From the NCBI GenBank assembly GCA_034231615.1, contig CM067317.1, positions 16,940,264 through 17,004,263 of the forward strand: DNA of 64,000 nucleotides. Reading direction: 5' to 3'. Under the pieces are notes generated by a model. That model worked only from the letters and a program-made list of their open reading frames with translations. It had not been told where the DNA came from and searched no databases. The position numbers and the translations under genes are program-made. Source of the DNA: Meghimatium bilineatum (lineage: Eukaryota > Mollusca > Gastropoda > Stylommatophora > Philomycidae). Positions 26,999 through 63,383 of the stretch are shown piece by piece. Positions within the stretch are counted from its first letter, which is position 1. Each line of letters begins with the position of its first letter.

Positions 26999-27156
26999 TC
27001 AGAGTTGGAATCCAGTTCTTGACCTCGGCCTGTCTGATATTCTGTAGTAAGGTTCGTTATATCCATCTATGGCTCCATTGACAGGAACTGCTAGTATCTC
27101 TGGCTGAATAGGCATAGACTTCTTAGATATTGTCTCAGAGTAACCGTTGATCTCGG
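26999..27156 (-). CDS. LHFPL3/4-like: LHFPL-like gene, terminal coding exon 3
   Basis: A poly-pyrimidine tract and acceptor (TTTTTTTTTTACAG) end at 27157. The phase then demands that CC pair with the T left by exon 2, and the frame stays open for 51 codons to TGA at 27001-26999. It encodes a hydrophilic C-terminal tail (EINGYSETISKK... ending TGFQL) with several S, T and Y residues. The support is positional: right strand, perfect splice signal, right phase and a sensible stop. I recall no homologue for this tail. A possible AATAAA lies on the minus strand near 26725-26730. Confidence 0.75.
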
Positions 27157-29612
27157 CTGTAAAAAAAAAAGAAGAAAATTGTATTTATTAATTTATTGCT
27201 TATACATTTATATTTAAATTTAATAACACATAAATATTAAGAATTCTCATTATTTTGCACTGATTCTCACAGTGGAATTTTGCACTGATTCTCACATTGG
27301 AATTTTGCACTGATTCTCACAGTGGAATTTTGCACTGATTTTCAAACGCAGTTGCCCAGGTGAAAGTACATTATTTTTTAGGCACAAAATAACACAGACT
27401 AAATACAATTTCAGGATGTTCGTATACGAAATATGGGAAAGTAATGATAAATCTCACAGTGATGATACATTATTCTTATCGTGATGTTGATCATCGATAT
27501 AATCGCTTCCAAACGGGACGTCCGAGTCTGCCTAATGTCGCCGATACTTGTACCTAATTTGCAAGATCTTATGCTAGCAAATGTCAAAACCGCTTTAAGA
27601 TACTAGTACATATATCCCACTATGGAGGAACACAAAATACACGATTAGTGGACAATCTCAGAAATAATAGTAAAAATTCAAACAGATCTTCAAAAAAATT
27701 CCCTTGTGGACAAGCCATCTGTACATCGTGTTTGAACCCACAGCCTCACGAACACAGGCCTTTGCGTGACTTTACCTGTTGCTCTCGACTGTACACCCCT
27801 TCTAACTTATTTAATTAATTTGAGCCCCGTTCGTTAAGTTTTTGATTATTCTTGGACATTTAGTTGGTTGCTATTTACATACTTGGAGTCGCATGTCAAA
27901 AATAGAAAAGGCCAAATAGATGTCACGTAAATTGGAGACTAGTTTATGATTACGTTTTATCCAACAGGTCTCCTATACTGCCGAATTCGCGCTTCACTGC
28001 GGTAATCCTCTACTTTGATTCAATCACAATATAAATATACACTAAAATAAAACATCACTGGAGAATATATAACATCACTGGAGAATATATAACATCATTG
28101 GAGAATATATAACATCACTGGAGAATATATAACATCACTGGAGAATATATAACATCATTGGAGAATATATAACATCATTGGAGAATATATAACATCATTG
28201 GAGAATATATAATATTATTGGAGAAATACACAATAGATGTAGTAAAGCATATCAAGCCCTAGGAAAAATGACACCAATCTTCAGAAACAAAAATATAGAT
28301 TTAAACACCAAAATAACACTATTCAAAACGATTATTATGCCAGCCCTCTGCTACCAATGTCAAACATGGACAACGACAGCACAAGAAAAACGTAAACTTT
28401 TTACAGCTGAAATGGCATGCTTACGCAAAATAAGAGACGGGGTGAGGAATGAGGACATTAGACAAAAAACCGGCACCACCACAATCTTAGATTAAGAAAC
28501 AACAGATCAAATGGTTTGCACGCATCAGCAGACTACCATCAGACAGCATACCACAGCAAGCTATACTACACAGATACAGTGAAGTCAGACCTAGAGCCAG
28601 ACCACGAAAACGATGAACCACCGAGATAAAAGAGGCGACAAATTCTCAAATATACTCAGCACACAGGAGTGTCGCCCGACCACGAAAACGATGAACCACC
28701 GAAATAAAAGACGCGAAAAATTCTCAAATATACTCAGCACACATGAGTGTCGTCTCTAGAAAACTCTTCTACCCCTGAAACTGTAAGGCAACAAAAGTTT
28801 TAGCGATTAGATAGATAGATAGATAGATAGATAATACATGGATGTTAATCCGTCGTAAGTTGATAAAATCGAATTATTGCTTTCTATTTCCAGGAAACAA
28901 ATATGGCCTCAAGAGACAGATCTGAAGGTGAAGCTGTGGGGCAACCGTGAGGACCTCCTGCTGACGACTTAATTCATGGAGGCGGCTCACCTTCCTGTAT
29001 AGACTTATGAGCATAGGAAACTGATCGCAGAAGAAGAAGATTTCCAGGAATATCAGTGGGAGGACACAACATAAATAATTTGAGATATGCTGATGGCACT
29101 GTTTTAATTGCAAAAAGTGGGGAAGACCTTCAAGAATTAATTAATGTTGTAGTCACAGAAAGAAAGAGAAAGTCCTCTTCCTAAATATAAAGAAAACAGA
29201 AGTAATCGTTATTTCAAAGAAACAGAATACTACACCTTGCAAGATCAAAATGAATGATATAGTTTTAAATCAGGTCCACCTATTCAAATATTTAGGCACA
29301 ACGATTACAGCAGATGAAAAAAGTTCAACAGAAATAAGAAGCAGAATAGGGCAGGCAAAAACAACATTCAGAAAAAGGAAAAATATATTGTATAATAAGA
29401 CTTGGAGTTATGGCTTGGAAATTTGAAATATGGAGTGTTACTGGAGGGGATGATAGAAGGCAACAGGGGCAAAGGCCGACCAAGACGCCGTTGGACAAAA
29501 GACATTCAAGAATGTCTGCACATGTCACTTAAAATGAAGGGCAACTTGCTAAAGACCGCGGAGAATTCAAGAGATCAATAGGAAAGACTACGTTCTGAAA
29601 AGAATATGTCAC

Positions 29613-29658: not shown

Positions 29659-32600
29659 TAATATGACTTTGTCATTAGAGGTGAGAAAGAGAGTTCTGTA
29701 GTGCAATATTAACTCCTATATTAATGTATGGGTGTGAATCTTGGACAATAAACAAACTGGAAAGTTAGAAATTAGAGGCAATAGAGTTGTGGTTCTATAG
29801 AAGAATGCTGAGAATACCATGGACTGCCAGAAAAAAACTAATGTGGAGGTGTTGAAGGAGTCAAATGCGAAACAGACCTTAATCAATAATATAAGAAAAA
29901 GACAATCTTCAATTTTTAGCCACTTCATGAGACAGGAAGGCTTGGAGAACATAGTCACAACAAGCAAGATTGAAGGCAACAGAGACAGAGGGCGACAACG
30001 TGAGAAAATATTAGACAGTTTGTCAACCTGGCAGGGCAGGGAAACAACAGCGAGCATGATACATAATACTGGAGACAGAGAGCTGTGGTGAGCAATGATC
30101 GCCTACTCCAGCCGGCATGGCACCTGATGATGATGATTTCCAGATGCTTATTAGGTGGTTAAATGTACTGGACGCGAAATCAATTCTAGTAGAAATATAT
30201 TTTATTGTATCTCCATATTGTGTAAAAAATTTTAATTATTTTTTTTGGGGGGGGGGGGGGGGTCTAGGTAGGACAAGTTATCAACACTTCTTCTTCTTCT
30301 TCTTCTTTAGTGTTCATTCTCACACTCCTACTAGAACTCTCTTGTATCAGGATAATGGTCTTGCTAGATTTCCAGCAGGCTGTAGTCCAGAGAACAGAAA
30401 CGCTTTGTGTCGTTGTTGTATGTGCGCCAATTGGAACATATCCGTCTTCGGCAGGATCAATTTTTTTTTAATTTCTTCTCTAATGCGAGTGACATTAAAA
30501 AAATTTTCATTGAATAATATATACTGTATTGTAGAATATATAATAAAGCATAATCGTCTGTGTCCTACCGACCGTCGCGAGCGTTAACTCTCAAGTACGC
30601 ATGTCTGGAGAATTCATTATTTCTGTAAAACAGACTACTTGTATTCACATAAGATGTCATATTCGATTATGTGTCTACTTTTAAACCGACTGAACCATGA
30701 TAACTCAGTAGTTAGAACACTGGTATTCTCAACCAGTTATCCTAGATTCCATTTCTATCATATGTGGAAACACTATTTGTTCACCAATATCTTCTACGAG
30801 GATTCTGCACTTGTATCCCTTATTGCTGTAGGGAGGTTTCATATTTAGAAAATTTAAACCTTTAGCAGTTTGCACTGGTTTGAGAATTGCCTCGTACTTA
30901 ATTAGAGTGATGATGAAATAAGAGAAATCCACTCAACCAATAGTTCCAATAACAATGAGAAAAAGAAGGTATTAATCTGATATATGTTCTGAAGGAACCA
31001 AAGAATTGCAAGACAGTTTCCAGATTGGAAGCAATAAGAAAAAGAATACGATGTCTATCAAACGACTGAAAATAACACATACAAGCCAAGTAAAATAAAA
31101 AAGGATCGATTGAACGGACCTAGTTCAGATCCCCTCTATTGTCATCTGATTTCTTTTCTACAATATATAGGATTTGATTATCTCGCTGAAATTAAGAAAA
31201 TTGCTGAAAACCGAGACTCATGCCGAGATACACTACAAACACTAAATGGTATATGAGAATAAATTAATGAAAGAATGGATAGATGGATTGGTGCGAAAAT
31301 AAAGTAACTCACATCTTGTGGCTGTGCTTCTTTGAGAACCGTTTCCAAACTTCGCTCGCTTTGCTGCCAAGAAAAAAGCAAGAACAGCCAAAAAAGTTGC
31401 GTCAAATATTCCTATAATTGCTAGAATATATGCCCAACGAATGCCACATTCTCCAAGTTTATACTGCCCCGCGTCGGTACCACAGATTGACACAATCTCT
31501 GGATCATCCCATCCTGCTGGGTATATTATACAGGCCAGAAGCATGAACACAGCTGGGGACGTGACAGAATACACAAAACAATTTAGTGCATGTACGATTT
31601 AGTTCTACTCTAATTAAAAACGTACATATTTGGTCCGTATAGTTTATATAGATATCATTAACTATATATGTATAATAAGAGGGATCACAGTTACACAACA
31701 TGAAACAATTAGACGTACACAAATTAAATGGTGTGATTTAGAGAATAAAAAGGTAGCTCTTATGGAGGAATGCTCCTATCAACCGTGGACACAATTCCAA
31801 TTGGTTATATCATAATAGTAAATAAAGATAGTGACATGTGAGATGAAATGCTTGAGGAAAGCCGCAGGAGTCAACAGGTTCGATAGATTATGAAATGAAG
31901 ATATCAGGGAAAGAATAGGTATAATACCTTGTACAGATTACATAGAGAGAGAACAGATCAAGTGGTTTGGCCACATTATGAGAATGCATCACGAAAAGTT
32001 GCCCGTACAGGAATATAACCAAATGAGATCAGGGTGCAAAACCAGAGGAAGACCACGGAAAAGATGGATATAAAACGTCAGGGATATCCTGAACAAATTC
32101 GGTCATAGCACAGCCGAGGTCACACATCTGGCTTTAGAACGCAAGCTCGAGCTCCAATCACTGCTACGCTTAACGGCAAGAGTGGATAACAAACCACCTG
32201 GGGAAAGACAATAGACAATAGTAACCATAAAAATAATGGAAGTCTTAGTTTGATCATGACCTCTGTGTATTATACAAAACATTGGTAGCTTATCATGTTC
32301 AGGATGTAGCTATCAGCCCAGCAATTTTTGGCCGTAGTGATTTTCTGGGCAATATAAATGTATCAGTAGTTTGTCATTGCTTTCCGTATACACAATTGCC
32401 TTCTGTGGAAATTGAACCCGGTACCGTCACAGACGTATGTACCACAACGTCACAGATCCAGATAATGGTATATAACCGAAGAAAATTAATGATAAATTGT
32501 TATTTCTAAACTGAACACAAAAAAGTAACACGACAGGACACAGACAAATCAAAGCAATATCTACAGAAAGGAATTGAAGCTAATAACTCCTAATTATCAT

Positions 32601-35600
32601 TATATATGCATGCGGCTGTGTATATAATAGCAATACTGTCAAGAGTTAGTCTACTAATAAATTTACAGAATACTGAATAAAGCGATGCGTGTCATTCCTG
32701 GACGTCTCAGATATACTGAATGATGCGATGCGTATCATTCTTGGATGCTCCAGAGATTTAGAAATAGTGGCAATACGCTCCTTTCTGCATTGTCATACCA
32801 TGATGCAAATAGCGGATAAGTGTTGACAGGAATCACCCACTAGAAACAGATTAAATAGGGAAACAGGAAACAGATTAAATAGGGAAACAGGAAACAGATT
32901 AAATAGGGAAACAGGAAATAGATTAAATAGGGAAACAGGAAACATATTAAATAGGGAAACAGGACACAGATTAAATAGGGAAACAGGAAACAGATTACAT
33001 AGGGGGAGTCATATGACAGGACAGGGGAGATTATTTAAGCAGCGTGCATATTAGATGACATAGAACCTGGAGAAGAGTTGGAAAGTAAACATATCAAGTT
33101 TACAACTTCCATTGCAGAGGTAATCACACTTTCCATGAACCATAACAGTGATATATTAGTTCATATAGATGCAGTAGTACAGGCTCTAATCAGTGAGAAT
33201 TCTTAAGATGGGAATAGTATTGTCTACAATGATGGATCTGTGGTTAGGAAAGTGCGTAGTGCTTGGGCATTCATGGCCTCAATGCAGGGGGAAATATATT
33301 GAAGAAGGTGTTTTCTATATAACCACTAGACAGTATGACAATGGGATTCATGCAATTACAAAGGTAATGATATTTCTGGAGTCCTAGAGTGCTACAGGTT
33401 TCTGTATTCTTAATGATTCTGTGGGCATGCTTCGAACGATTCAATCGGGCTATCTATGCCATCAGTGTTTTCAGTCGATAACAACATCTTTGCAGGAGTC
33501 ATCTTTATTTATTTTTTTCCCTGGATACGTGTGTGTTGAGGGATCTGAAATAGCAGATAAACTTCCTAGTGTGACCTCAGTGACTAGTCGCAGTTCATTG
33601 GACCGTGCCAGTGACTAGTGACTAGTGGCAGTTCATAGGACTGTGCTGATATTTTGAATTAAATTAATTGGAATTGGACAAGTTGTAAGATATGAGGTGT
33701 ATTACTTCTTCGGTATATGCGGCTAGAATACAAGACCTGAAAGTGAAGCGTGATGTTGAAAGACACAAGCGGCATAGTGGAGCCAAAATAGAATTATCAA
33801 CCAACACAGAACCGGAACAGTCAGTTAGCACTTGCTGAAGGACACGTGGTCTGTCCATAAATTACGCAAATAATTGTGGGGGAAGGAATATGAACATATT
33901 TGACAGTTGTTGACAAGGATATAATGGGATTTGAAAAAATTTGACGTCAAAAACGGTTGGTTTTTTATACACCAATTAAATAGTGCGAATTTGAAAAACA
34001 TTTTCAAAAAATCTGAAAGAATAATGGCCTTTTTTCGCAACTTTTCTGCACAAGCAACTTTTTATGGGAAGAGAAAGTAAATAAATGTTGATATAATTAA
34101 GCAGGGTGGTCCCTAAATTCTTGACAAGTTGTTGACATAATTAAGCAGGGAGGTCCCTAAATTCTTGACAAGTTGTTGACATAATTAAGCAGTGAGGTCC
34201 TTAAAGTCTTGAGACGTTGTAATATAATTAAGCAGGGAGGGCCCTAAATTTATTTGACACGTTGTTGACATAATAAAGCAGGGTAGTCTCTACATTGTTG
34301 ACAAGTTGTTGACATAATTAAGCAAGAAGATCCCTAAATTCTTGACAACTTGTTAACAAGGGGAAAGAGGGTTAAATATTGCATTAAAAAAAGAGTTTGA
34401 GTAATTTATGAACAGCTTTATACTGAATATGAGATACTGAAAACACTTATACTGAAAACACTTATACTGAAAACACTTATGAACTTGTCAGGGATGCTAT
34501 GATGATGATGATCTGTCGTCGACTAACTAACTAATTAGTCAATCAATGAGTCGGTCGATTGATTGGTGTGTTAGTTGGCTGGTTTACTGGTTTGTTTGCT
34601 TGTTAGCTGACTACTTTATTGTTAGGTTGATTTGTTTGCTTATTTATCCATTACTTTGTTCATTAGCATCTTTTTTTGTACATTTGTTTGCTGTTTTTTT
34701 TTAAGGTGGCCGGTCGATCGGTCATGATCATTGCATACAAGAAATGTCTTTCGATTCGACCTTGATCATATCCGCCATTGCACGGCTTCTGACAGTTCCA
34801 GATTTCTGTTGACGAAAACTTTTCTTCTTCTTCTTCTGCGTTCGTTCTCAAACTCCTGCAACTTAGCAGGATGTAGTTTGGAGAATGGAATGCGTTGTGT
34901 CATGGTTTACAGCATTGCTGCGATATATGCGCCTTTCGACCTGACACATCCTATTTCAGTATGGCTTTGGGTCACTGATCCTATATGGAATGGGACAGCC
35001 AACTCCATCCTATAACCTCTTTAGTCGCCTTTTACGTCATGCATGGAAGGTAAAGAGTGTTGCTATTCTTTGCTCCCCTTTCGGGTCCCGAAAACACACT
35101 GGCGCTAAGAGCATAATGATGCTCAATGTTTTCCAAACCCCATTTCAAACTCATCTTCTTTATTCACTTCGTTCTTCGAATGATATCCTGCTAACCAACA
35201 GTAATTTGGGAACGATTGAAGAAGAATACATAAAATATAAGTCAATAATATATGTCAGAACAAGATGTCAAAATTAGAGAACAAACGTAAAAACATAACT
35301 AATAATATAAAACAAGTAGACGGATAGAGTAAATGAGAAAAACACACATTATTGTTAAAAAGCACAAGCATACTTACCGGTAATTATTTCTAAGATCCCA
35401 CAAAACACAAACACGGCTGTTTTCTTGAAACAGAAGAACAACAACAGTGCCGCAACACAAATGAGCATGATAAGGGCTGCTACTCCACAGAAGAATGTAC
35501 TGGTTTTGAACGGATCATTCAAAATAGTATCAAAGTTCCCAAATGTCCCTGTGCACGTATATCGTGTAAATGTTGGCGGCTCAAGGTAGCAGTGGGCGTA

Positions 35601-35789
35601 CACTCCAGCATGTCCATAACCTTGGGATTCTTCTGTGTCTCCTATCCACTGAGGCTGAATAAAACAAACTACGTTGAGAATGCACCAGATGATTGTGAGT
35701 AGACCCCATAATACAGCCACGCCTAAGTATTCTCGCCTGTACTTGTAGTAATATATTTCCACACCCTGTTGGGTGAACTTCACATCCAT
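26999..35789 (-). CDS. LHFPL3/4-like: LHFPL-family tetraspan membrane protein (three coding exons, complete)
   Basis: The coding exons are 35789-35378, 31552-31313 and 27156-26999 (stop TGA at 27001-26999). Both introns are phase 1, and the split codons read GCT (Ala138) and TCC (Ser218). The predicted protein is about 269 residues, close to the 220-250 usual for the family. Four hydrophobic segments are visible near residues 22-45, 97-121, 124-148 and 177-201. LHFPL hallmarks include NVVCFIQPQWIGD after helix 1, the cysteines of the first extracellular loop, YPAGWD after helix 3, two cysteines in loop 2 (C161, C173), and GIRWAYILAIIGIFDA leading into helix 4. Known vertebrate relatives are auxiliary plasma-membrane subunits: LHFPL4 with GABA-A receptors and LHFPL5 with hair-cell mechanotransduction channels. 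The exact paralogue is not decided here. The 50-residue C-terminal exon is hydrophilic and I do not recognise it. The introns (3.8 and 4.2 kb) are full of retroelement debris. Confidence 0.93.
27248..27345. repeat. Minisatellite, unit 25 bp, four copies
   Basis: The unit is TTTTGCACTGATTCTCACAG followed by TGGAA, inside LHFPL-like intron 2. Confidence 0.93.
27480..27760 (+). pseudogene. Possible retroelement C-terminal remnant
   Basis: A broken plus frame reads SKKFPCGQAICTSC, then FTCCSRLYTPSNL. This cysteine pattern precedes the GIY-YIG domain in some retroelements. It is weak, and no GIY-YIG core follows. Confidence 0.3.
28035..28225. repeat. Minisatellite, unit 20 bp, about nine copies
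   Basis: The unit is AACATCACTGGAGAATATAT, with ATCATT and AATATTATT variants. It stops where the reverse transcriptase fragment begins. Confidence 0.95.
28226..28800 (+). pseudogene. Non-LTR reverse transcriptase, C-terminal fragment
   Basis: KITLFKTIIMPALCYQCQTW (28306-28360) and then MACLRKIRDGVRNEDIRQKT are the usual thumb and post-thumb motifs. Bases 28595-28677 are tandemly duplicated at about 28678-28757 (CCACGAAAACGATGAACCAC). The tail reaches a (GATA)n run at 28806-28832, which may be the 3' tail. Confidence 0.75.
29030..30110 (+). pseudogene. Non-LTR reverse transcriptase remnant(s), nested
   Basis: NINNLRYADGTVLIAKSGED (29068-29130) carries the polymerase YADD box changed to YADG. 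VHLFKYLGTTITADEKSS follows (29277-29330). At about 29460 a different element end appears (GKGRPRRRWTKDIQ), ending in (GAT)n at 29612-29659. From 29690 a reverse transcriptase end resumes, with RKRQSSIFSHFMRQEGLEN and GRQREKILDSL, then DRELW near 30090. Many stops; not functional. Confidence 0.75.
29612..29659. repeat. (GAT)n microsatellite
   Basis: A GATGAT run following the CDS-like end of an inserted retroelement piece; perhaps its 3' tail. Confidence 0.95.
30284..30470 (-). mobile_element. SINE-like family A, subfamily 2, 5'-truncated
   Basis: (CTT)n, then TGTTCATTCTCACACTCCTA, CTCTTGTATCAGGATAATGG and TAGATTTCCAGCAGG. It has the same variant inner segment and the same truncation zone as 4474-4640. 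Confidence 0.8.
30471..31312. other. LHFPL-like intron 2, nothing recognised
   Basis: AT-rich sequence. A 17-base G-run preceded by T-runs lies just upstream at 30245-30262. Confidence 0.45.
31313..31552 (-). CDS. LHFPL3/4-like: LHFPL-like gene, coding exon 2
   Basis: The acceptor is CGTCCCCAG ending at 31553 and the donor is AAGAT|GTGAGT with last exon base 31313. The exon is 240 nt, taken as 2 + 79 codons + 1, which fits both neighbours. It encodes the rest of helix 3, the second extracellular loop (YPAGWDDPEIVSICG, then LGECGIRWAY) and helix 4. Downstream of the donor the frame runs on without homology, as expected for intron. Confidence 0.93.
31840..32215 (+). pseudogene. Non-LTR reverse transcriptase, C-terminal fragment
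   Basis: MKCLRKAAGVNRFDRL, REQIKWFGHIMRM and TRGRPRKRWI are spread over 31846-32075, with one stop inside. It resembles 51465-51885. It lies in LHFPL-like intron 1, opposite to the gene. Confidence 0.75.
32640..33610 (+). pseudogene. Reverse transcriptase end plus RNase H pseudogene, interrupted by a minisatellite
   Basis: ILNDAMRIILGCSRDLEI (about 32715-32765) is the end of a reverse transcriptase region. The RNase H part shows YNDGSVVRKV (33222-33250; first Asp present but T lost), a decayed middle, LNDSVGMLRTIQSG (33409-33450) with the third-position Asp, and GYVCVEGSEIADKL (33525-33566), corresponding to GHVGVEGNEIAD. A 24-bp minisatellite (32838-32998) sits between the halves. Frameshifts throughout. 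Confidence 0.65.
32838..32998. repeat. Minisatellite, unit 24 bp, about six and a half copies
   Basis: The unit is AACAGATTAAATAGGGAAAC followed by AGGA. Confidence 0.95.
33850..34417. mobile_element. Inverted-repeat element family M, full-length, with internal tandem expansion
   Basis: CTGTCCATAAATTACGCAAA at the left and TTTGAGTAATTTATGAACAG at the right are inverted repeats (18 of 20 match). The family is shared with 43866-44441, 48670-49015 and 8300-8490. Inside, 34085-34350 consists of about six units of roughly 44 bp around TTGACATAATTAAGCAGGGA and GGTCCCTAAATTCTTGACAA. No transposase is present, so it is a MITE-like non-autonomous DNA element. The superfamily is not established. Confidence 0.78.
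34085..34350. repeat. Tandem repeat of about 44 bp inside element M
   Basis: Six imperfect copies of GTTGTTGACATAATTAAGCA, GGGAGGTCCCTAAATTCTTG and ACAA. Other family copies contain only one or two, so this is local expansion. Confidence 0.88.
34826..35110 (-). mobile_element. SINE-like family A, near full-length
   Basis: (TTC)n, then TGCGTTCGTTCTCAAACTCC through to TTTCGGGTCCCGAAAACACA. It lies in LHFPL-like intron 1, 270 bp from coding exon 1, on the same strand as the gene. No target duplication found. Confidence 0.85.
35378..35789 (-). CDS. LHFPL3/4-like: LHFPL-like gene, coding exon 1
   Basis: This exon runs from ATG at 35789-35787 to a donor reading ACCG|GTAAGTA, whose last exon base is 35378 (phase 1). 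It encodes residues 1-137: a cytoplasmic N-terminus, transmembrane helix 1, the first extracellular loop with its conserved cysteines, helix 2 and most of helix 3. A good acceptor (TTTTACAG, ending at 35802) lies 12 bases upstream of the ATG, so a non-coding 5' exon further right is likely. I infer that 5' UTR exon and cannot locate it. Confidence 0.93.
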
Positions 35790-35801
35790 TGTAGTAAAAC
35801 T

Positions 35802-36504
35802 CTGTAAAATTATATGAATAACGTTGTAGTTTTACAAAGTTTAACATGGTATGTATTTGTTATGTTTATTTTGCAAAATGTTCTCGAAGCAGACAACTGT
35901 ATTTAGTTAACTCCCTTTATCTCCGCACGGGTTGTCATGCCCTGCCGTGATATATTTAGACAGCTTTAAAAAAAAATAAAGAACCTATCGACTTACAGGT
36001 ATATCCAGTGGATTTAATTAACAACCTACTGGTGCAGAGAGTTGATCTAGTTCACAGTTTAGCCGGATTATCGAAGAAACAGATTTAAAGCTTGATAACC
36101 GTGCCAATGTTTACGACAGGCCCATGTTGTGCTTGAACTAGTTACGGGCACGGCGTGGGTGGGCGGAACTACAAAGAAACCTGTCGCAAGGGTCAGAGTT
36201 GTGCCCTGATGTCGACGTCTGTTTCGGCGGCATTGGGTTTGAAACACCATCGAGTCGAATGGCTGCTGGAACAGAGGACGGAGCACTTATGGGAATGCCC
36301 CACGTGCTGTGAGGCCAGTTTTTTAATCAAGAATAAAGAAGAATCAAGCCAATGTTTACATCTAAAAACATCAAATACAATCATTCGGATATATTAGTAT
36401 GTGGCCATCTGCAAGCCTACAAGCGCACATAACAAAACAAAGGCCGTATAGATACGTCTTCGGTAATGGGGGGGGGGAGGATGTGTTAAACTTTCCAAGA
36501 AACA

Positions 36505-36508
<4 letters not shown>
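35802..36508. other. Upstream of LHFPL-like coding exon; dispersed repeat pieces
   Basis: The promoter or 5' UTR exon is not located. Bases 36240-36345 (GGAGCACTTATGGGAATGCC) match 48123-48180 and 24874-24920. On plus this reads EHLWECPTC, reminiscent of the EHLWTCPEC at the end of the retroelement at 19935-20266, so it may be a retroelement 3' end. Confidence 0.4.

Positions 36509-36545
<37 letters not shown>
36509..36545. repeat. (TA)n microsatellite
   Basis: A pure TA run of about 36 bases. Confidence 0.95.
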
Positions 36546-36549
<4 letters not shown>

Positions 36550-40100: not shown

Positions 40101-40104
40101 TATC

Positions 40105-47120: not shown

Positions 47121-47124
47121 TTGA

Positions 47125-50835: not shown

Positions 50836-50854
50836 CTTGATAGTGAGTCTTCGT

Positions 50855-51372: not shown

Positions 51373-54300
51373 GTATGTAGCTGTTTAAAATTTCTATTTT
51401 TATCTTGTTGGTTTATTAATGTTGATCAAAATACTATAAATGACAACAAAAAAACATCTCCAACCCTGTGCTACCAATGTCATACATGGTCCTTAACAAC
51501 AAAACATTAGAGACAACTGGTTACAACAGAGATGAGATGTCTGAGAAAAGCCACAGGAGTGATCAGAAGACACAGAATTAGAAACGAGGTCATAAGAGAA
51601 AGAGTGGGTGTCATATCAATTCTACAATACATACAAAACCAACAGATACAATGGTTTGGTCATCTGGAAAGAATGCCGTGTGATTCATTAGTTTATAAAG
51701 CATGTATGAAGAGAGGAGAAGCAGAAAGAAGAGCCAGGGGTAGACCTAGAGTACGCTGGATCGACAACATCAAAGAGACATTACACGAACACCAAATAAC
51801 ATTATCTGAAGCTGCCAGAAAAGCGAGAACAAGAACATTGTATCTCCCTCGACACCCGTAAAGGGTAAAAGAGGAAGGAAAGAAGAAGGTTTATATTACT
51901 TTGGATGTGTTTTGTTTGAATCATCAGAACTAGTCTTGTTTTAATAGTTTGTTATGTATTTTCTACTATTGATCATGCACTCAGAGTACAGGTTAACTTG
52001 AATGTTGATAATTAAATATGGTAATGCATGCTGAAAATGGATGTGCTGGGCTGGAAGGACCAACATAACCTAGCTCTGCTGTGAAACTGGCAGCACAACA
52101 TACTTTGCGCTCTCCTCGGCAGAAAATCACACAAACTCTCGTGTTGGTTAGCAGAGAGCGAACGTAGATGAAAGGAAAAATAATCTTGCAGAATAGGGTT
52201 AAAATCAGCATCTTTGCTCTTGGGGTGTCCATGTGTGCTCAGTCCTTTTAGGTTACATGAGTGACTATTTCAGTATACTTTTACAGTAGCTTCAGCCATG
52301 TTTCTGAATTTTCCACCAACAGTAAAATAGAAAAATAGTTATAGCTAACACATAACATACACAGATAAGCAGTTCTTCTTCTGCGTTCGTTCTCAAACTC
52401 CTGCATATTAGCAGGAAGTAGTCCGGAGAATGGAATGCGTTGTGTCATGGTTTACAGCATTGCTGTGATATCTGCGCCTTTCGGCCTGACACATCCGACT
52501 TCAGCATGGCTTTGGGTCACTGACCCTATATGGGATGGGACAGCCAACTCCATCCCATAACGTCCTTAGTCGTCTTTTACGACATGTGTGGAAGGTAAAC
52601 AGTGTTGCTATTCTTTTCTCCCCTTTCAGGCCCTGGCAACTCACGGGCGAAGCAGTTCTAGTTCATTATATTTGAAATTGTAAATACAAGAAAACAGCGT
52701 GTTACTTTCTGCAAGGCACCTCTTGAAAGAACCAGCACATTTAAATATTTGGGAGTGCTTTTTGAAAGAAATATGGGTTTCAAAGAAAATGTTGATCACA
52801 GTTTAAGGGCAAGAAAGAAGAAACATGATGTATGTGTCATGCTGAAAGGCATAGATATAGAAGCCAAAATGTAAATCATGACATGAAGCAAAGCATTCTG
52901 CTCTATGGACTACACCCTGCTAACCTGCAGGAGTTTGACAACCAAAGCAGGAGAGGGTAAGAAAATATCTAACAGCAATGAAAGTTATGACTCCTGGCCA
53001 GTGCGAACAGATGCTATTTCTTGTCTACCAAGACTTGTTTCTCTATTAGAGTATCCACTGACAATGATGGTTAAAATCTAGATATTTCTTCTGTTTTCTC
53101 TCTAATAATCAACACAGATTTTATTATAATTTCGGCTGTAGAGCATAAGTCATTGTGCTACCATTTGTTTTGTGTCATGTAGGACTAGAACATTTGATTT
53201 CAGCATGCTTTTAATTTTGGTGAGCTTCCCTAGCCTGTTACAGCCTATCTGTCAGCAGGTGTAAAATGTATATACTTTACTCCATGACAGTTTATCCCCC
53301 ACTGTGTCCTTGGACTTTACAAGCCAACATATGTCTCTGGGTAGCAGTCTCCAAAGAGGCTGTAGGCAGGGATTTGGATTTTGATACTTCTCCAGAAACT
53401 TTCTCAGTACTCTTGCTTTTGTGAGCTTTTCGCCATGACAATCTGGCAGCCCAGGCCAGCAGTAGGCTTACACTGTGCTGTTACAGTGTTCTATCTGCAG
53501 GAACTGAAAGGTGCTATTCACAGGTATTGTTTCTCTTATGCAGTCGTCATTCCATCTCAATCCCCACTACCTAGATACAATCCATAAAGAGTTAGTCTGA
53601 TTGTTTCCATGGTTCACCAGGAAGTGCTTTTAGAATTTTTGGTTATCTGCTAACCCTGAAATTGCATGAGAGCAATGCAAATCCCTTTGCACCCCAAATT
53701 TAGAATGAGGCGGCATACATAATGGTATATTTCTTCTAAATACACACAAAAAACCTCTTAAAGCATTGCATACAGTTGAGATTTGAAGTTTTCTGGGTAT
53801 GAAACAAAAGCTCTGGAGACCACAAAAACATTCTTCCTTTGTATATAAATATGAGCTTCGTCACTTGAAATTCCTTTAGGTTAAAACAGATCGTGTAAAC
53901 TTTATTAATTAATTACATGCTAACATAACACTGAACTTGACAGATTGTTATGAATTTTTTTTTAAAATAGAAGCAAAACATGACTCCGGGTTCTTTATTT
54001 ATATATGGACATACTGGTACTGGGAAATCACTTGTACTACAGACAGTACTGACACACCACAAGGTTTGTATTATTTTATGTTGTTGCTTTTCACTATTTT
54101 CTTTCTTGGGACATCTTGTGCTGCATATATTTTGTAGTTATTTTGTCATTGTGTTTTTGAAAATATCCTATTCTTTTTTTTGATGTTCTAAATTTCTTTT
54201 GGTAGTCTTTGAAAAATTTGAGTCATTTCTTTATATAGTTTATAATTTTTGTTGATTTTGTCTAGAGCTTTCAAGTTTAGAAACTTTTTATCTACCATTA

Positions 54301-57300
54301 TATTGTTTCTACTTAATACAATTTTACTTACCAGTCAATGCTCATGAATAATATTCCTCCACACAATCTGCTCACAAACATAACTATACATATCACTATG
54401 CATATAATTCATGAAAGTTTGGTCTCATTTTAAGCGCAAAAATATTTTTTCATAAATAACTAAGGTATATATAACAATCATATTCATATATTAAACCATT
54501 TTGAACAATAATTAAATTTAATTGCATCTGAAAATTAGCTCAATGTAATCAACAGATTCATCTTAACTTTCTGAACACAAAAATATATAGTTTGTTGCCT
54601 ACTTTATCATTAATAGCTGAAATATTTAATAATTAGACTATTCAATTCAATGTTAATTGTACAAATTAGCCGTCATTTTGAATTTTATTTAACACAAATT
54701 TCATCTGAACATTTGCACTATGTCAAATCAACAGATGCATCTTGCCTTTGCGAACATAAAAATATATATTTTATGTGGTATTTTATTATATTTAATAGCT
54801 ATATAATTTATTTTTTAAATATGCTAATTAGCTGTGCATTCTACTGAAAATTACGAACTGGGATCAACAGATGCATTGTGTCTTCACGAACTCAAAAATG
54901 TACAGTTTGCGTGTTGTATTATTGAAAATAACACAGATAATTCAGAAATTATCAACTCGACACTGTTTTGTGGTCACAGCTGTCATTTATATTTTCCTAT
55001 ATTTTTCATGTAAATTATTTTTATGTTTAATTAATTTGAAAAAATTCAAAACATTTTTCAGGATTGACAGTCAGACTTGATTGAGGTATCATTGAATTGC
55101 AATTTTGAAGAACTATCTAACTATAATATTTGTAATTATGTAGCATCATTTTGAAATTTTGTCCGAGTACCTACATTCTTACCTGCTGGTATAGTGTGGA
55201 AACTGATTGCCTCTTGTTCTTGTTTCGATTCTTCTTGTTTCTGGGATATCGAAAGACAGCAAACCAGGTGGTTTAGCCATGTCATGGGAATGGAACCAAC
55301 GCAAGACAAATATTTTAAGATTGTACTATCCATGACATGTTACATTTCTTCTATCCAATGTTGCAACTTCTCACTCATTGGCAGCACATGCCAGTCTGTA
55401 AAATTAACATGTTTTCTGTAGTTTGAATAGACTTGCATAATTAATTTTTGAATATATGAACTTATAGTAGGAGTAGTTCTAAACGTAATTGCAAAGATTA
55501 AGTTTTATGGAGCTTCCAAAAGAGAAAACCCTAACAATATGTGTGTTATGTACTGGGATTGTGCTGTTGCATGATAGTTGCTTTGGTGTGCCATTGGTAA
55601 GACCTTAAATCTTACTATTTGTCTTGGAAAATTCATTTTAGGCATATTTACCTTATTAAACTAAAATATCAAAATTTATGTTGTCTAATATAAACTTAAA
55701 TTTTCCTCTCTGTGTTCCAGTTGCCACATATTTATATGAACTGTATTGAGTGTTCAAACCCTCGATTTCTGTTTGAACACATCCTCAACAATATTTCATT
55801 GCAAGAAGTCAACAAGTGTGAGAGTGAAGCCAGTAGTATCCCAATGGAGATTGAGAGTGATGTTGATGATTATATCCAATGTGACAACATGACCGACTTT
55901 GTTCGACAACTGGTCAGTCTGGTATCCAACAGTGCATTAAAGGACGAAACTTTATACTTGGTAAGCATTTGTACTCTGATAACATTTTCCATTCACAAAT
56001 CTTATTTTTAAGATTATTAATCTTAATATTATTGTTTCTCTGTTATCATCATCGTCTGCCGTCTCCGCAACAAAGGTTGGCTGCAACAGACCTCCAACAT
56101 CCCCTGTCTCTTCTTTTAATAGTACACTCTGCTAGACTGTAATGTGATGTTGCGCTCCCACTTGTATCTCTGCCTACCTTTTATTCGCTCCCTTCGACAT
56201 TATCCTCAAGTAAGGACTTCAAAAAGTTGTCATCTTTTAATGTGTCCAAAATATTTTATTTGCTTCATTGTGTCTATTAATCATTTTTTCTTCCTATTAA
56301 GTTTTGTTAGAAACTCTTTGTTTCCTTCCACTTTCCATGATTTTCTCCCTATTCTTCTATATACCCACATCACCTGGGAGAGGGGGGGGGCAACCATGCA
56401 GATAGTGGAACAGCATCCTGATACGGAGGGTAGCTACACTTCATATCTTGTGGTTGCCTATGATATAAGCCAGATCTCAGGACGAAAAAGCAGTTGCAGA
56501 CAAACTGGCAATGTTGCCCACCAGAACAGGGTGGGATATCAGGTGGCACTGATATCTCCACTAAAATACACCATATGTCTCGTGATGGGCAGCATCAAGC
56601 GAGTATGAGCCACTGTAAGCTCAAGCCAACAGCTGGGGTTATTGACCCTAGCCTGACGCATCCCCAGAGTGGGGGGGTGCCTTTAAATGGGGAAACATAG
56701 GAAATAGCTTTCTAAATACACAAAGGGAGAAGTCAGCAAAATTCCCCTTAGGCCCTATTCTGTAAGGGGAAAGAGGCAGGAAAAACATAGAAAACTCCTA
56801 ACTACGCTGTGTAGGTGCTGCTCAAGAGTCCAGAAAGACATGCCACCTAGGAGATGGAAAACTCTACACAAAGTCTGGGCATATGTATATGGTGCTCATG
56901 AGCCCAAGAGGGCAGACGTCTAAGAACAGTAAACCTAAAAAAAATAGCTGCTGGAAATTGGATGCACTTTTTTATCTCATAAAATAGTAAGAACGGTTAT
57001 GAACCAGCTGGGGGATAGTGATCACAAACTTATCAAACTCACTATCAACCTCAACTACGCACTGGAAGAGCAAAAGCCTCTTCCCTGCTGGAACTATAAG
57101 AGAGAAGACTGGGAAAAATGTGCAAAGCTCACACATATAGTGAGCCTATCAATACCCATCAAAAGAAAATAAAGAACACAACAGAAAAGCTAACTGAGGC
57201 AATCCTTAGAGCAGTAAAAGAATCAATACCAAGAGGAACAAGGAAAAAATTACAAACTGTACTGGTCCAAAGAAGTACAAAAGCTTGAAGAAGACCTGAA

Positions 57301-60300
57301 TATGGTCAGAGGATTAGCAGAAACAGAGCAGGGTACAGAAAGCAATATAGCTCTCAGTGCAGTTTCTGCTAGATACAAGAGAGAGGTAAAAACATCGGCA
57401 AGGAAGCGCTGGATAGGAAAACAACTGAGAGCCTTAACATGGACAAAGATGAAAACAAACTCTGGAAACTTGCCACGGCATTAAGGATGAAAACAATAGC
57501 CAACCACCAATAACAATTGAATATGATTTTTTTTAAATGTACACTGGAAAAGCATCAGCAAACATTATCATAAAAATTATGTAACTGTGAGCCAGATAAA
57601 CATACCAAAAGAAGAAAAAAAGTAGTTAAGAATGAAATCCATGGACTAAAGGATATGCCCATGGTGATAGAAGAACAACAAAAAAAGGAAGATCAAGAAC
57701 TAGATGGGTGGAGACAATCAAAGAAAAATTAAAGAGAAGTGAGGACCAAATATAGACAATTCCAACTTTCTCCCCTCCTCCTCAACCCCCCAAAAAAGTG
57801 ATACTTAACGACAAACGTGAAAATGACAATAGATAGATAATAGTTTACCTTCTTTGTCACTGGAGCCACCTTAATGCAATATTTCTTGCTTCCACATATT
57901 TGCTGTAAGATATTGAGATAAGATATGTGTTCTGTGAATCTGGCAGACTTTTCTGCCATGTTTTCCTGGAAGTTTATCTAGTCTGTTCTGATTCTTCTGT
58001 GCAATAATTTAAGTCATAATATTGTCTATGTAATATTTTCATTTAACTCTTTAGGTGCTAGATAAAGCAGAAAGACTGAGAGATAGCAGTGCAAATATTT
58101 TACCAGTTTTTCTAAGGCTTCAAGAATTGGTGAGTTTAGAAATGTTGCTAGTTTATGAAATATGCCTATAGCCCTTTTTTTTAATCATACTTATTAGGAA
58201 ATGAAGTTCAGCACAGTCTCTTCACTCTAAATTTCGTAAATGTGTTTCATTTGCAAGGTGAACAGAAAGAACATTTAAAGTGACCACTGACTGCAAGTAG
58301 TCAAGGGCCCAGTTTTATTGGAGACAAATGATAAGCAGCTCTGAGATCCTGTGTGGAAGTTGTGCATGTTAATAAAACTAGTCAGTTCAGACACAAATAA
58401 GTCTAGACTAAAAATCTACCATAGATACAAAAATATTCGGAAATTGTACCAGGATCTACACTGGTGCTGCATTTTATGTGTACGGTTTATACTTTTTTCC
58501 TATGTAAGACAGATATGAACTCAAAAGTTCATTGATGCTGGTGGTTAATTTTCACCTGCTATCGGCTGTAATTTTTTTTTTAAAGAATCAGCGTAAAAAA
58601 TAAAATCATGACATGTGGTTTATCTGGATGATGACAGCTGGAGAACATTCAAATTACATAGAAGCAATATTGCCAACTTGTGTTTATTAACATACCCCAT
58701 TCTTTGGATCATTTGTTTAGATTGTCCAGGGTATCCTGTAGACGAATTGTGATGTGCTTGCATATTCTTTACTTATCTGTGCAATGTCATCAACATACAG
58801 CAACATACATACTAGCCCGTAATTTTCTGGCTAGGGTTTGCTTTAGATCATTGATCACAAATAGAATTGAAGATAGGACCCTCAATGTGGAACCATTTCA
58901 TCATTTGCACCATGTTACTTTGCCTTGTAAAACTACTGCCTTTCTCCCTGTTTTGTACTCTTTTTTTTTCAAGGATATCATTCTGTGGGAGATGCCATTC
59001 CTGCAGTAGTTTGACAACTAGAACTTGATTCCAGACTTTATCAAAGGTTGTTTCTATATCAACCCAAACTACTACAGTGTGCCCTTTTTATTGAAACTCA
59101 CCCTCGATTTTCTTGGTGATGAAGTTGACTTGGTCCTCATTTGATCTCAACTTGTAGAAACCTGCTTGCTCAGGCTTGTTAGGTTGTTTAGTTATAAGAA
59201 CCATGTGAGCCTGGAGTTTATGATTCTTTCCATTATTTTGCAGACACAGCTGGTGAGAATTAATTGATGGTAGCTGTCAGCATGTAGATTTTCTGGCTAA
59301 TATGTATGGATGCTGGCGACATTGAACAGCTAAGTACAGAATAATATGTAGGCACATCACAATTTCATCTAAAGGATACCCTGGAAAACCTAGATAAATG
59401 GTCTTTAATAAAAATGGGTATGTCAATAAACTGGAAGAATAAAACATACACCATATCTTCACTATCAACAAAACCCCAAAAGACGAAACTCATCATAAAT
59501 CACACAGTGGGTAGTGAAAGAAGACTCACGATCTTATCTTGTAGTAGTCACATTTGACACATGCAGGACTTAGAAAAACCAGATTGAACAAAAAATCAAA
59601 AGAGAGGCATGAAACAATTGAACCTAGTGAAGAAATTGGCTGGAACAGTCTGTGGGGCTAATTCCTTGGTTCTGAAGAAAACTTACACAAACAATGTTAG
59701 AAGTACCTTGGAATATGATAGTGGATCATGGGGATCAACAGCAAGAAGCAATCTTCAAAAAGTAGAAAATATAAAACATTTAAGAATGTGATTGATGACA
59801 AATGCATGAGACATATCCCAATAATAACAATGTAGAGTTTGGTCTGCTTACATTCCCAACAAGAAAGAATAGATGCTAAAAATTTGACTCAATCTGCCAG
59901 ATATTAATCTCTGGAAAACCACTCTCTAAGCTACAGAGTAAATAATTTCTGCTGAAAAATCAGACTAAAAAGAGCCAGTTTTTGTGATTGAGGCTCACAG
60001 AGGAAAACTACAGCTAATAGATTTCTCCCTGCAAAAAGATAACCAATATAGCTCATGTCCCCGTTGGGCCCAAAAATCCTTACCAAGAATAGAAGATTAT
60101 ACATGATTTAAAGATAAAATCTCATCAAGATCTAAGTGCCCTAAAACAAATAGTGTTGAAGATGCTCCAAAATGACTATCCAAAATTCGTTTGGACAAGA
60201 GTATATAAAGGCTGCACAGTGGAGGAAGCCGTGTGGAATGATGGTGGAGGCATCTATATAGAATGGCCCAGTAGAAACACTTGGAAAGTCAGTAGCCAGT

Positions 60301-63300
60301 GGTGTTCATTCTACAAATTTCAAGGCAGAGTGTGAAGCATTCAAAGAAGCAACTCTTTTGCTGCTGGAAACATCCAAGGAAGGACACACACCTGAAGGAA
60401 GTGGATAGTGATCCTGACTAATGTCAAATCTGCTTTGCAGGTCTTCCATACCCCAAACATATTCCACATGATGACCTAAAATCACTACTATCTCACCTAA
60501 ACAATGACTATTATCTCACCTAAACAATCAAGAAAAAGAAGTTTCCATGCCACTCACAAATCAGGGAAATGAGATAAGTAAATACGCTTGAAAAAAAACA
60601 AAACAAAAATTGGAAGTAACTGACAACAACAAATAAAAGATTTAGTATCATTTCCAGAAATTAGTCCATTATTAAAAACTCCATTAACATGGAATGGAAC
60701 TCAACAAACCCTTGCAGCCAAAAAGACAGTGCGGAACTCTCCTTGAATGCGTGTCTACCTTTTTATTTTGATTATTTCCCTCGATTATGTTTATAAATTT
60801 GTTTGTCTGTATTTATTAATTTAAATATTTATTTATTTAAGAAGGTTGTGTGAGTTAGGGTTTGGGTGAATTAATAAATATTTGTTATCTGACAAACATA
60901 TCCAAGGAAAGCACACATTCGAGGAGAGTTCTGACAATGTTATCTACATACTTGGAAGAAAGGAGCAAAATGTGGATTTTTAGATTGAGAACAGGTCGCA
61001 ACAGACTCAACACATGTACTGGAAGTTTAGAGTTGATGACATTGATATATGTCCCTGTGGACAATCTCCAGAAAACAACATATTTTATAGAACTGCCCAC
61101 TGTATGACACCACAAGAAGAAAATTATGGCCATCTCTCAGATGGACATGCTTATGATTCTGTCTCTTTGCTGGTGGCCACAGTACAGCTCAATGATAAAT
61201 TTCTATCAGCATCTGGCTATCCTGGAGAACAAGGATGAAGAGAAAAAAGAAGCTAACTTGCGTGAGTGATGCTGTGTTTTAAATTTCCATTGTAAATTTA
61301 AGATATTCATTTAAAATTTAATACATATATACGTATACATACATTTTATTTCAGTCTGGTCTCAACATATGCACAATTTTAATATCAGAAATCGTGTGGG
61401 AAAAGTTTCGATATGGAACTGGATTCTATGAACCATACTGTCTGCATTTTCCTGACTACAGTCGACGTAAGTCACTTTTGACTGGCATACATTTTGTGAA
61501 TAGTTTTCACTGTCAAATGTTGTCACACTGTTTAAAATTTGTCTCTTATTATTAGTAGCTTTACATGTCCATTTTGGTGAAAACAAGTACTGAATCAAGT
61601 ACAAAAATGCCCAAATCACGGGTTTGGGTCTGAAATTCGTACTAGTTGACACCTATGCCTTCTCTATCCAATCTTGAATATAAGAATTTCGCTAAAATAG
61701 CTTCCATTTCAACTAGATCTAGAGGATCATAGGACAATTGGTAACTTTAAAAACAGCTAACATTCTGCTGGTCTTGTTCAAACCAATTTTACTGAAAATG
61801 AGGCTATATAATTGCTACAGTGTTGTCAAATTTTTCACAGAACAAAAAAAAACAAATTTAAACTTTTTATCGTAGTTACAAAATTGCTTAGCGGTGGTCA
61901 CAATTCTGCTTCCACATTGTTAGCGGAGTACAACCAGAAATGAGTTTGTATTCGTGGAGAAGGTTAAATAGTCTAATTGAAATACAACTTAAAGGAAGAG
62001 TCTAGAAAAAGCACCTTTTGCTGGATTCACTGTATTTAAACCACTTACTAAAACTTGAATGGATCTAATTTCTGTGACTGAAAGTAAATTGGAAAAGGGG
62101 CAAATGTTCATGCTCTTATCAGTTCACTTTGATATTCTATTTGACCTAATAACCATCTCACATGGATAGCAAAGGATTTTAAGTTATGGTCCTCACCAGT
62201 TAAGATGAATAACAATGCAACCAGTCTGTCAGTAGTATAGAACAGTGGTTCTCAATATGCAGCCCTCCATTGAGCCTCAGAGATAAAATTTTAATTGAAC
62301 GGCCATATAAAAGTAACTTTAAATTATAAACAAACAAAATTTATATAAATGAATCTTAAAAAGCCTTAGTAACATTTTTATGACACCATAGTGACCACTG
62401 AGGAAAATTTGTTCCAAAAGGGAGTCACTTGTAAATAAAAGTTGAGAACCACTAGTCTAGAATATGTTTACAAAATATTTTGTACATTTTTTCTCATTTT
62501 TAAGGGTTTTTTTGTTGAATATCTGACACTATTTCTTAGAGGAGCTGACAGAGATTATGTACTTGGATGCCCCAACATCAAATGAGAAAGATTTGTACAT
62601 TTTGTACATCAACATTGTCCTATCTGTCTTTCATATGGTGTGCCGTGATCTAAGGGAGCTCCGTCACATTGTAAGTGTTAGCAGTTGATTATGGATTTGT
62701 TGTGTCTTTAACATAAATATTTCTTGCCATAGATTTGTTACGTCTGAATTATAAATATCTCCCAACATAATTTTATTGTATCTGTCATAGAAATATCTAC
62801 TGACATAATGTATATTTCCAAGTAGAGATTCTTTGTCACTATTGATGTTTGGGTTTATGTTTATACGTATATGTATATGCATATATATTATTTCACCCAA
62901 AGGGGATTCTGTTAATTGGGATTTGGGTAATTGGATTTCTACTGTATGTATGTATATATGTGTGTGTGCATGCGTGCACACAATAAACATATTTCTAAAT
63001 TACCAGTATTAACATAAATGATAATACAGAATACCACCAAATTAGAAAGATTAATCATGGAGGGAAAAGTTCTAGGAAAGAGAACAAGGGACAGACCAAC
63101 ACTACAATGGATAGAGGATATCAAAGACCATCTAAACATAACTCTTGAAGGGGCTGGACAGCTTGCACAGAACCGAGAAGCTTACAGAGTGGCTGTGAGG
63201 ACAATGTTCTGTAAAAGGATACATCACATAGATAGATTTGTTGCTCCTGTCACACTACACATTCTTTACTTGGATGTATATTTAGACATAAATTTGTTTC

Positions 63301-63383
63301 TTTAACCTATTTTTTTTTTACAATTTATTTTCAGGCGAGGTTGAATTATCCTTACTTCATTGAGCCTATTGAGAAAAATAAAG
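51280..63383 (+). CDS. ORC5: Origin recognition complex subunit 5, exons 1-7 (3' part outside window)
   Basis: The coding exons are 51280-51372, 53971-54063, 55721-55960, 58055-58129, 61355-61466, 62540-62670 and 63335-63383. All splice sites are GT-AG. Introns 1-4 are phase 0, intron 5 phase 1 (codon CAG across it), intron 6 phase 0, and exon 7 ends in phase 1. The joined frame gives about 264 residues of a protein that is about 435 in human. ORC5 is an AAA+ subunit of the nuclear complex that binds replication origins and helps load the MCM helicase. Visible motifs are Walker A GHTGTGKS (residues 44-51), a Walker B-like [10 protein letters not shown] (143-152), the strongly conserved SEIVWEKFR (about 178-186) and FPDYS, and CRDLRELRH near residue 240. 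The introns carry retroelement fragments. The winged-helix C-terminus must lie beyond 64000. Confidence 0.96.
51465..51885 (+). pseudogene. Non-LTR reverse transcriptase, C-terminal fragment in ORC5 intron 1
   Basis: [13 protein letters not shown], a stop, then [31 protein letters not shown] and [16 protein letters not shown]. There is only one stop in about 130 codons, so it is fairly young. It carries no YADD box. Confidence 0.8.
52377..52649 (-). mobile_element. SINE-like family A, full-length, perfect 10-bp duplication
   Basis: AAGCAGTTCT lies at 52367-52376 and 52650-52659. The copy runs from the TTC-rich tail to CAACTCACGGGCG and sits in ORC5 intron 1, opposite to the gene. Confidence 0.93.
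52672..52960 (+). pseudogene. Retroelement reverse transcriptase fragment followed by a family A piece
   Basis: [20 protein letters not shown] (52712-52770) is the motif after the YADD box. From 52862 to 52950 the plus strand turns into family A sequence (GTAAATCATGACATGAAGCA, then CCTGCTAACCTGCAGGAGTT). Confidence 0.65.
53755..53885. repeat. Dispersed repeat family D, weak copy
   Basis: AAGTTTTCTGGGTATGAAAC and TTGAAATTCCTTTAGGTT recall copies 1 and 2. It is strongly diverged. Confidence 0.35.
53971..54063 (+). CDS. ORC5: ORC5 exon 2 (Walker A)
   Basis: The acceptor TTTAAAATAG ends at 53970 and the donor CACAAG|GTTTGT follows 54063. The exon has 31 codons in phase 0, including [18 protein letters not shown]: the ATP-binding P-loop of an AAA+ protein, with the IYGHT form typical of ORC5. 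Confidence 0.96.
54064..55720. other. ORC5: ORC5 intron 2
   Basis: Very AT-rich, with three loosely similar stretches containing CAACAGATGCAT (near 54550, 54729 and 54864) that look like an old roughly 150-bp repeat. Bases 55225-55320 read [20 protein letters not shown], a small reverse transcriptase C-terminal scrap. Confidence 0.5.
55721..55960 (+). CDS. ORC5: ORC5 exon 3
   Basis: The acceptor CTGTGTTCCAG ends at 55720 and the donor TACTTG|GTAAGC follows 55960. There are 80 codons in phase 0. [19 protein letters not shown] aligns with the segment after Walker A in ORC5. The middle (residues about 90-115) is an acidic, variable insert, and the end TDFVRQLV...LKDETLYL leads into the Walker B strand. 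Confidence 0.95.
55961..58054 (+). pseudogene. ORC5 intron 3 with an I-like retroelement fragment (about 57000-57500)
   Basis: [14 protein letters not shown] (57011-57052) is the closing SDH motif of the AP-like endonuclease. [10 protein letters not shown], then [13 protein letters not shown] and [15 protein letters not shown] (57255-57390), are the linker before the reverse transcriptase. At 57660-57720 another scrap reads [20 protein letters not shown] cannot assign 56040-56990 securely; it has a 60-codon frame and a G-run near 56380. Confidence 0.65.
58055..58129 (+). CDS. ORC5: ORC5 exon 4 (Walker B region)
   Basis: The acceptor AACTCTTTAG ends at 58054 and the donor GAATTG|GTGAGT follows 58129. 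The 25 codons in phase 0 read [10 protein letters not shown] then [10 protein letters not shown]. This is the ORC5 form of the Walker B region, with DKAE in place of the usual DExx, followed by the helix after it. Confidence 0.95.
58660..59284 (-). pseudogene. I-like reverse transcriptase, inverted 5' arm
   Basis: The minus strand reads [20 protein letters not shown] (59125-59185) and [16 protein letters not shown] (59025-59080; motif A, F/VDxExAFDxVW). It then degrades into a YADDIA-like stretch near 58790 and [18 protein letters not shown] near 58690. It lies head to head with the plus-strand arm starting at 59285. The two share about 150 bases (58660-58830 reversed against 59285-59440). 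Confidence 0.72.
59285..61110 (+). pseudogene. I-like reverse transcriptase C-terminus and RNase H, decayed
   Basis: [20 protein letters not shown] and [16 protein letters not shown] (59618-59755) match RRKLAILRKLSGTTWG and HLEYGSAAW of the element at 41081-42500. [20 protein letters not shown] (60174-60232) matches the start of its RNase H, but the YTDGS Asp is lost (YKGC). [13 protein letters not shown] (60980-61017) matches RLRTGHNRLRS. It lies in ORC5 intron 4. Confidence 0.8.
61355..61466 (+). CDS. ORC5: ORC5 exon 5
   Basis: The acceptor TTTTATTTCAG ends at 61354 and the donor GTCGAC|GTAAGT follows 61466. It gives 37 codons plus one base. It contains [14 protein letters not shown] and HFPDYS, the best conserved stretch of ORC5, covering the sensor 1 area and the strand that follows. 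Confidence 0.96.
62243..62454. mobile_element. hAT-type MITE in ORC5 intron 5
   Basis: The ends are CAGTGGTTCTCAA and TTGAGAACCACTA, inverted. The flanks GTATAGAA (62235-62242) and GTCTAGAA (62455-62462) match at 7 of 8, the hAT duplication length. At 212 bp it has no coding capacity. It ends 85 bases before the exon 6 acceptor. Confidence 0.87.
62540..62670 (+). CDS. ORC5: ORC5 exon 6
   Basis: The acceptor TATTTCTTAG ends at 62539 and the donor CACATT|GTAAGT follows 62670. Its first two bases complete CAG with the C of exon 5. [19 protein letters not shown] and RELRH correspond to the helical lid part of the AAA+ module in ORC5. Confidence 0.95.
63018..63240 (+). pseudogene. Non-LTR reverse transcriptase, C-terminal scrap in ORC5 intron 6
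   Basis: [20 protein letters not shown], then [11 protein letters not shown] and AQNREAYR. This is the usual GRRxRGRPxxRWxDDIK ending of such elements. The frame is open over about 70 codons. Confidence 0.75.
63335..63383 (+). CDS. ORC5: ORC5 exon 7
   Basis: The acceptor ATTTTCAG ends at 63334 and the donor AAAG|GTATGT follows 63383. It encodes [16 protein letters not shown] plus one base. In ORC5 the CRDLxELRH motif is followed directly by an LNFPKYCEP-like stretch, which this matches. No further ORC5 exon can be recognised before 64000. Confidence 0.9.

Follow-up and report, generated by a model that had tools for sequence, protein, structure and literature searches.

In a 64,000-nucleotide stretch of Meghimatium bilineatum DNA (contig CM067317.1, positions 16,940,264 to 17,004,263; hereafter the window), an LHFPL gene transcribed leftward (−) and an ORC5 gene transcribed rightward (+) are adjacent and divergent, with 15,490 bp between their start codons (ATG to ATG). 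We consider it probable (roughly 0.68) that the two form a neighbour pair inherited from a common ancestor with vertebrates, and that they are probably not one co-regulated unit. The LHFPL protein fell on the LHFPL3/4/5 side of its family in our phylogenetic analysis, and the introns of the two genes differed strongly in CpG content.

The LHFPL gene was modelled as three coding exons on the minus strand separated by two GT-AG introns, with a frame open from ATG to TGA and a complete protein of 269 amino acids (aa). Exon 1 (35378..35789) encodes residues 1–137, the first part of the tetraspan domain, and matched PF10242 by itself (3.2e-20), as did exon 2 (31313..31552; 3.5e-24), which carries the GWD and RWAYILAIIGI stretches, and exon 3 (26999..27156) encodes the C-terminal tail and the stop codon. 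The spliced protein covers the whole PF10242 profile (positions 1–181 of 181; E-value 9.8e-49; 166.5 bits against a cut-off of 25.2) and is thus a full-length member of the LHFPL tetraspan family; in comparisons with the Protein Data Bank (PDB), it matched LHFPL4 (9faj, 2.8e-43) and LHFPL5 (6c14, 2.7e-40). Exon 3 (52 aa) was called from frame and splice signals only; it had no Pfam match and no convincing relative in the family set tested, vertebrate tails included. The tail terminates in GFQL, an ending that we take to resemble a class II PDZ ligand motif. An acceptor-like sequence lies immediately 5' of the start codon and hints at an exon of the 5' untranslated region upstream, so the true transcription start may sit deeper in the spacer.

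The ORC5 portion in the window comprises seven coding exons on the plus strand, separated by six GT-AG introns; a GT donor follows exon 7, and the exons encode the first 264 aa of the protein. They are exons 1 (51280..51372, start codon at 51280), 2 (53971..54063, with the Walker A sequence GHTGTGKS), 3 (55721..55960), 4 (58055..58129) and 5 (61355..61466, with SEIVWEKFR); exon 6 (62540..62670) holds the beginning of the ORC5 lid domain, and exon 7 (63335..63383) is the last inside the window. The spliced sequence matched AAA_16 (1.5e-22; 81.3 bits against a cut-off of 32.6) and ORC5_lid (PF21639; 1.6e-10; 41.2 bits against 27.1; positions 4–41 of 60), so that both the Walker A-bearing AAA ATPase domain and the lid domain of ORC5 are present. 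Its best PDB matches were ORC5 chains, namely 5uj7 (1.5e-69 over residues 13–263) and 4xgc (1.9e-37 over 16–214), which we take to be human and fly ORC5, respectively. On chain 5ujm, which has 435 residues, the alignment extends to residue 243; the remainder of the gene falls outside the window.

The original prediction had placed these two genes about 15.5 kb apart with no other host gene between them, and the spliced models, with their Pfam and PDB matches, bear this out. Within the spacer (35790..51279), which contains a LINE (long interspersed nuclear element) remnant, tandem arrays and copies of a dispersed repeat of about 280 bp, there are 67 stop-to-stop open reading frames (ORFs) of at least 60 aa; 46 of these were scanned against Pfam, and the remaining 21 overlap the tandem arrays or the LINE ORF. 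A single scanned ORF passed the curated cut-off, a fragment with an RNase H domain (41119..42561, −; PF00075, 3.9e-16) that presumably belongs to a LINE, and several others gave weak matches below the cut-off. None of 10 of the 46 ORFs compared with NCBIfam yielded a match. No further host gene was found among the 46 of 67 ORFs scanned, a search that exons shorter than 60 aa or undescribed families would escape. CTCF-like core sites were not enriched (19 sites with at most two mismatches against 16.4 expected; 28 of 100 shuffles reached 19). At 37518–38365 the spacer carries a tandem array with a 59-bp unit, after which come GTGGATGG-like repeats. The repeat of about 280 bp occurs at nine places in the window, in both orientations and with about 90% identity between the best pairs (1082–1363, 17717–17974, 34820–35104, 43966–44222, 47761–48042, 49236–49316, 52373–52654, 52832–52968 and 63690–63856), the copies at 49236, 52832 and 63690 being partial.

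The LHFPL protein had been proposed to be LHFPL3/4-like. In a maximum likelihood tree of seven sequences (the window protein and LHFPL1, 2, 3, 4, 5 and 6, with LHFPL4 taken from PDB and LHFPL5 checked against it), it attached to the branch that links the 3/4/5 group (support 100) to LHFPL2 plus LHFPL1/6 (support 99). In constrained trees, the approximately unbiased (AU) test favoured the window protein with LHFPL3/4/5 as a group (0.992) and rejected its placement with LHFPL2 (0.0115) or with LHFPL1/6 (0.0015). Positions beside LHFPL3 (0.0053), LHFPL4 (0.032) and LHFPL5 (0.029) were also rejected by this test, and with them strict orthology to LHFPL3 or LHFPL4. By AU, then, the protein groups with LHFPL3/4/5 rather than with LHFPL2 or LHFPL1/6 and is not nested inside the 3/4/5 group, the Shimodaira–Hasegawa (SH) test rejecting none of these alternatives. 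The proposed affinity thus holds for the 3/4/5 side of the family and fails for the 3/4 clade, outside which the protein falls. On these sequences, it is best read as being, at best, a pre-duplication co-orthologue of LHFPL3/4/5.

The human counterpart of the pair is ORC5 and LHFPL3 at 7q22, which we take to be head to head and roughly 100 kb apart. PMC10244266 describes a human variant located between ORC5 and LHFPL3, which supports the adjacency stated in the original prediction. As in the window, the human ORC5 gene thus stands beside a gene of the LHFPL3/4/5 class (PMC10244266), whereas the window LHFPL branches before the split of LHFPL3, LHFPL4 and LHFPL5 and is separated from ORC5 by 15.5 kb. 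By our own estimate, assuming about 25,000 genes, a random head-to-head neighbour of LHFPL would be ORC5 with a probability of about 2e-5 (about 1 in 50,000), or about 1e-4 (about 1 in 10,000) when every neighbour of the three human paralogues is allowed. Chance adjacency is therefore estimated to be unlikely, so inheritance is the best reading, and we infer descent over chance. The dating of the pair to the bilaterian ancestor requires that the source species be a protostome. Scans of viral and prokaryotic contig collections yielded no relatives, as expected of such collections.

Several points speak for caution about inheritance. The SH test rejected none of the five alternative trees (with LHFPL2, 0.064; with LHFPL1/6, 0.056; nested in 3/4/5, 0.102–0.148), and the expected likelihood weights (c-ELW) retained the tree with LHFPL4 as partner of the window protein (0.0217). 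Sequence records stand behind three of the seven sequences in the tree (the window protein, LHFPL4 and LHFPL5), the other four (LHFPL1, 2, 3 and 6) being provisional, and the conservation of the pair rests on two points, the window and human. The window protein is only 35–39% identical to LHFPL3/4/5, and it is therefore possible that it corresponds to a lineage-specific sister paralogue or to a class confined to some invertebrates. A copy of this kind might have landed beside ORC5 independently, and the long branch of the window protein, its low identity and the representation of the source genome by the window copy alone would all fit such a coincidence. The AU placement next to LHFPL3/4/5 and the low estimated chance of finding ORC5 as a neighbour argue against it, and we regard it as unlikely.

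The CpG content of the introns bears on how an inherited pair would be regulated. The observed/expected (o/e) CpG ratio was 0.28 for the ORC5 introns (0.21–0.36 in each of the six) and 0.67 for the LHFPL introns (0.69 and 0.65), with 0.62 in the spacer and 0.77 to the left of LHFPL; the GpC o/e ratio was 0.93–1.04 across these four pooled regions. The CpG counts of the ORC5 and LHFPL introns differed significantly (Fisher's test, 2.3e-11). Among 11.3-kb intervals taken over the first 50 kb (step 500), the lowest CpG/GpC ratio was 0.55, against 0.27 for the ORC5 introns. A change-point at about 49800, some 1.5 kb short of the ORC5 ATG, separates a stretch of higher CpG (43.0–49.8 kb) from CpG-depleted DNA over ORC5, with CpG:GpC counts of 193:241 on its left and 128:459 on its right (Fisher's test, 1.5e-14, a post hoc value). 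The depleted stretch (49800–63383; o/e 0.30) covers the ORC5 part of the window and is possibly a footprint of germline gene-body methylation.

However, this signal has limits. The range of the change-point analysis (43,000–63,383) was picked after the profile had been viewed, which makes its p-value post hoc, and it excludes 37.0–43.0 kb. Depletion extends to this excluded part of the spacer (37001–43000; o/e 0.40), where the arrays and the LINE ORF lie, possibly as methylated repeats; the stretch from 43.0 to 49.8 kb is not depleted (0.83). Intervals of 6 kb gave 0.23–0.37 over 49.8–64 kb, and the lowest of 220 such intervals to the left gave 0.39. The coding sequences show no significant difference in CpG (0.60 in LHFPL and 0.41 in ORC5; Fisher's test, p 0.11), and both contain fewer CpG than their codon-shuffled versions (LHFPL, 23 against 31.6; ORC5, 12 against 18.0; p 0.002 each). 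Some depletion therefore reaches LHFPL as well, and ORC5 is not alone in showing it. CpG depletion is, moreover, an indirect and imperfect proxy.

In oyster, CpG methylation is concentrated on housekeeping genes, cell-cycle genes being among the preferred classes (PMC4378273). By analogy, the ORC5 gene of the window would be germline-methylated and broadly expressed, and LHFPL would be under different control, a contrast matched by the human genes, of which ORC5 is reported as ubiquitous and LHFPL3 as brain-specific in PMC10244266. An intron CpG contrast of this type suggests a sequence-only screen for co-regulation of ancient neighbours.

These differences bear on the suggestion, made in the original prediction, of a shared regulatory domain. 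Shared bidirectional or domain-wide control, with ORC5 and LHFPL co-expressed, would be consistent with their divergent order, and significant co-expression has been found within conserved metazoan microsyntenies in Euprymna (PMC9023564). However, the start codons are 15.5 kb apart, intron CpG depletion differs between the two genes, and the human genes differ in expression breadth (PMC10244266). Co-regulation, as a way of understanding the shared domain, is weakened by the CpG and expression contrasts, and on all three counts we set it aside as the leading mechanism and consider it very improbable.

Under inheritance from a common ancestor, two forms of retention come into question, which we regard as about equally likely. 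The pair may constitute a genomic regulatory block, in which enhancers of LHFPL lie in the spacer or in the ORC5 introns and ORC5 is an unmovable bystander. This is a tentative but plausible possibility: a target and a bystander would fit the contrast between ubiquitous ORC5 and brain-specific LHFPL3 in human (PMC10244266), and the unequal CpG depletion of the introns would fit the unrelated regulation of two such genes. Against it, the spacer is occupied by a LINE fragment together with tandem arrays and copies of dispersed repeats. Alternatively, ORC5 and LHFPL may never have been split by rearrangement, without any selection, a reading to which we likewise give some credence, as the pair consists of two genes alone and insertions are tolerated in the spacer; against it, the passive survival of a single adjacency for so long is generally uncommon in rearranged genomes.

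LHFPL4 is a GABA-A receptor partner. In hair cells, LHFPL5 is described as an auxiliary subunit of the mechanotransduction channel (PMC6974483); the passages covered of that paper and of PMC6031363 contain nothing on LHFPL3/4/5 in invertebrates. As we picture the inherited pair, ORC5, a subunit of the replication origin complex, would be broadly expressed and germline-methylated and would lie head to head with a gene representing the stage before LHFPL3, LHFPL4 and LHFPL5 split, the two having been kept together by descent. The LHFPL protein would have a different expression pattern and would serve membrane complexes as an auxiliary subunit, probably in a neural or sensory role. A more specific scenario, which we consider rather doubtful, is that, from the bilaterian ancestor onwards, ORC5 would have stood as a bystander within the regulatory domain of the LHFPL3/4/5 ancestor; LHFPL enhancers spanning the spacer and ORC5 would have preserved the adjacency despite insertions of mobile DNA, and, after the genome duplications of vertebrates, ORC5 would have stayed with the LHFPL3 copy alone. 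If the pair is conserved across phyla, it would mark an old regulatory neighbourhood of the class ancestral to LHFPL3, LHFPL4 and LHFPL5, with relevance to non-coding variants in the human ORC5–LHFPL3 region, such as the diabetes-associated one (PMC10244266).

The window contains several other elements. A 2.6-kb tandem array of 91 copies of a 29-bp unit lies at 9105–11744, with plus-strand frames open over long stretches. Two copies of one element, 83% identical, were found at 14618–14886 and 24423–24690; the first includes a tRNA-Ser-like sequence (14812–14883, −), the sole tRNA-like site identified by Rfam and ARAGORN, and the element is possibly a tRNA-derived short interspersed nuclear element (SINE). 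Mobile-element fragments correspond to an endonuclease domain (1–675, −; PF03372, 7.2e-13), a weak reverse transcriptase match below the cut-off (14084–14497, +; 0.016) and a hAT dimerisation domain (20710–20988, −; 4.7e-06).

The ORC5–LHFPL pair may already be in print. Outside human or medical contexts it did not appear among the matches listed in our literature search, beyond which published lists of conserved pairs and supplements lie. By title, the papers naming both ORC5 and LHFPL3 concern human, cell or dog medicine, and the passages covered contain nothing on invertebrate gene order. The microsynteny literature gave no LHFPL match and a sole ORC5 match, which by its title concerns protein domains; neither ORC5 nor LHFP is named in the main text of PMC9023564, of PMC6784235 or of PMC12407938, and neither ORC5 nor LHFPL in that of PMC8851819.

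PMC9023564 describes the genomic regulatory block model for metazoan and cephalopod microsynteny, and its tally of conserved metazoan microsyntenic blocks is 275 for Euprymna scolopes and 216 for the scallop M. yessoensis. Genomic regulatory blocks show the same pairing of broad and restricted expression that the human data indicate for ORC5 and LHFPL3; the window pair is known from its genes, and its candidate enhancers are hypothetical. The blocks of PMC9023564 were defined across many genomes and hold at least three genes, whereas ORC5–LHFPL is a single pair, observed in this window and in human. Like the window pair, however, these blocks keep unrelated genes adjacent over long evolutionary time, and ORC5–LHFPL is probably one more inherited neighbourhood in a class known at hundreds of loci.

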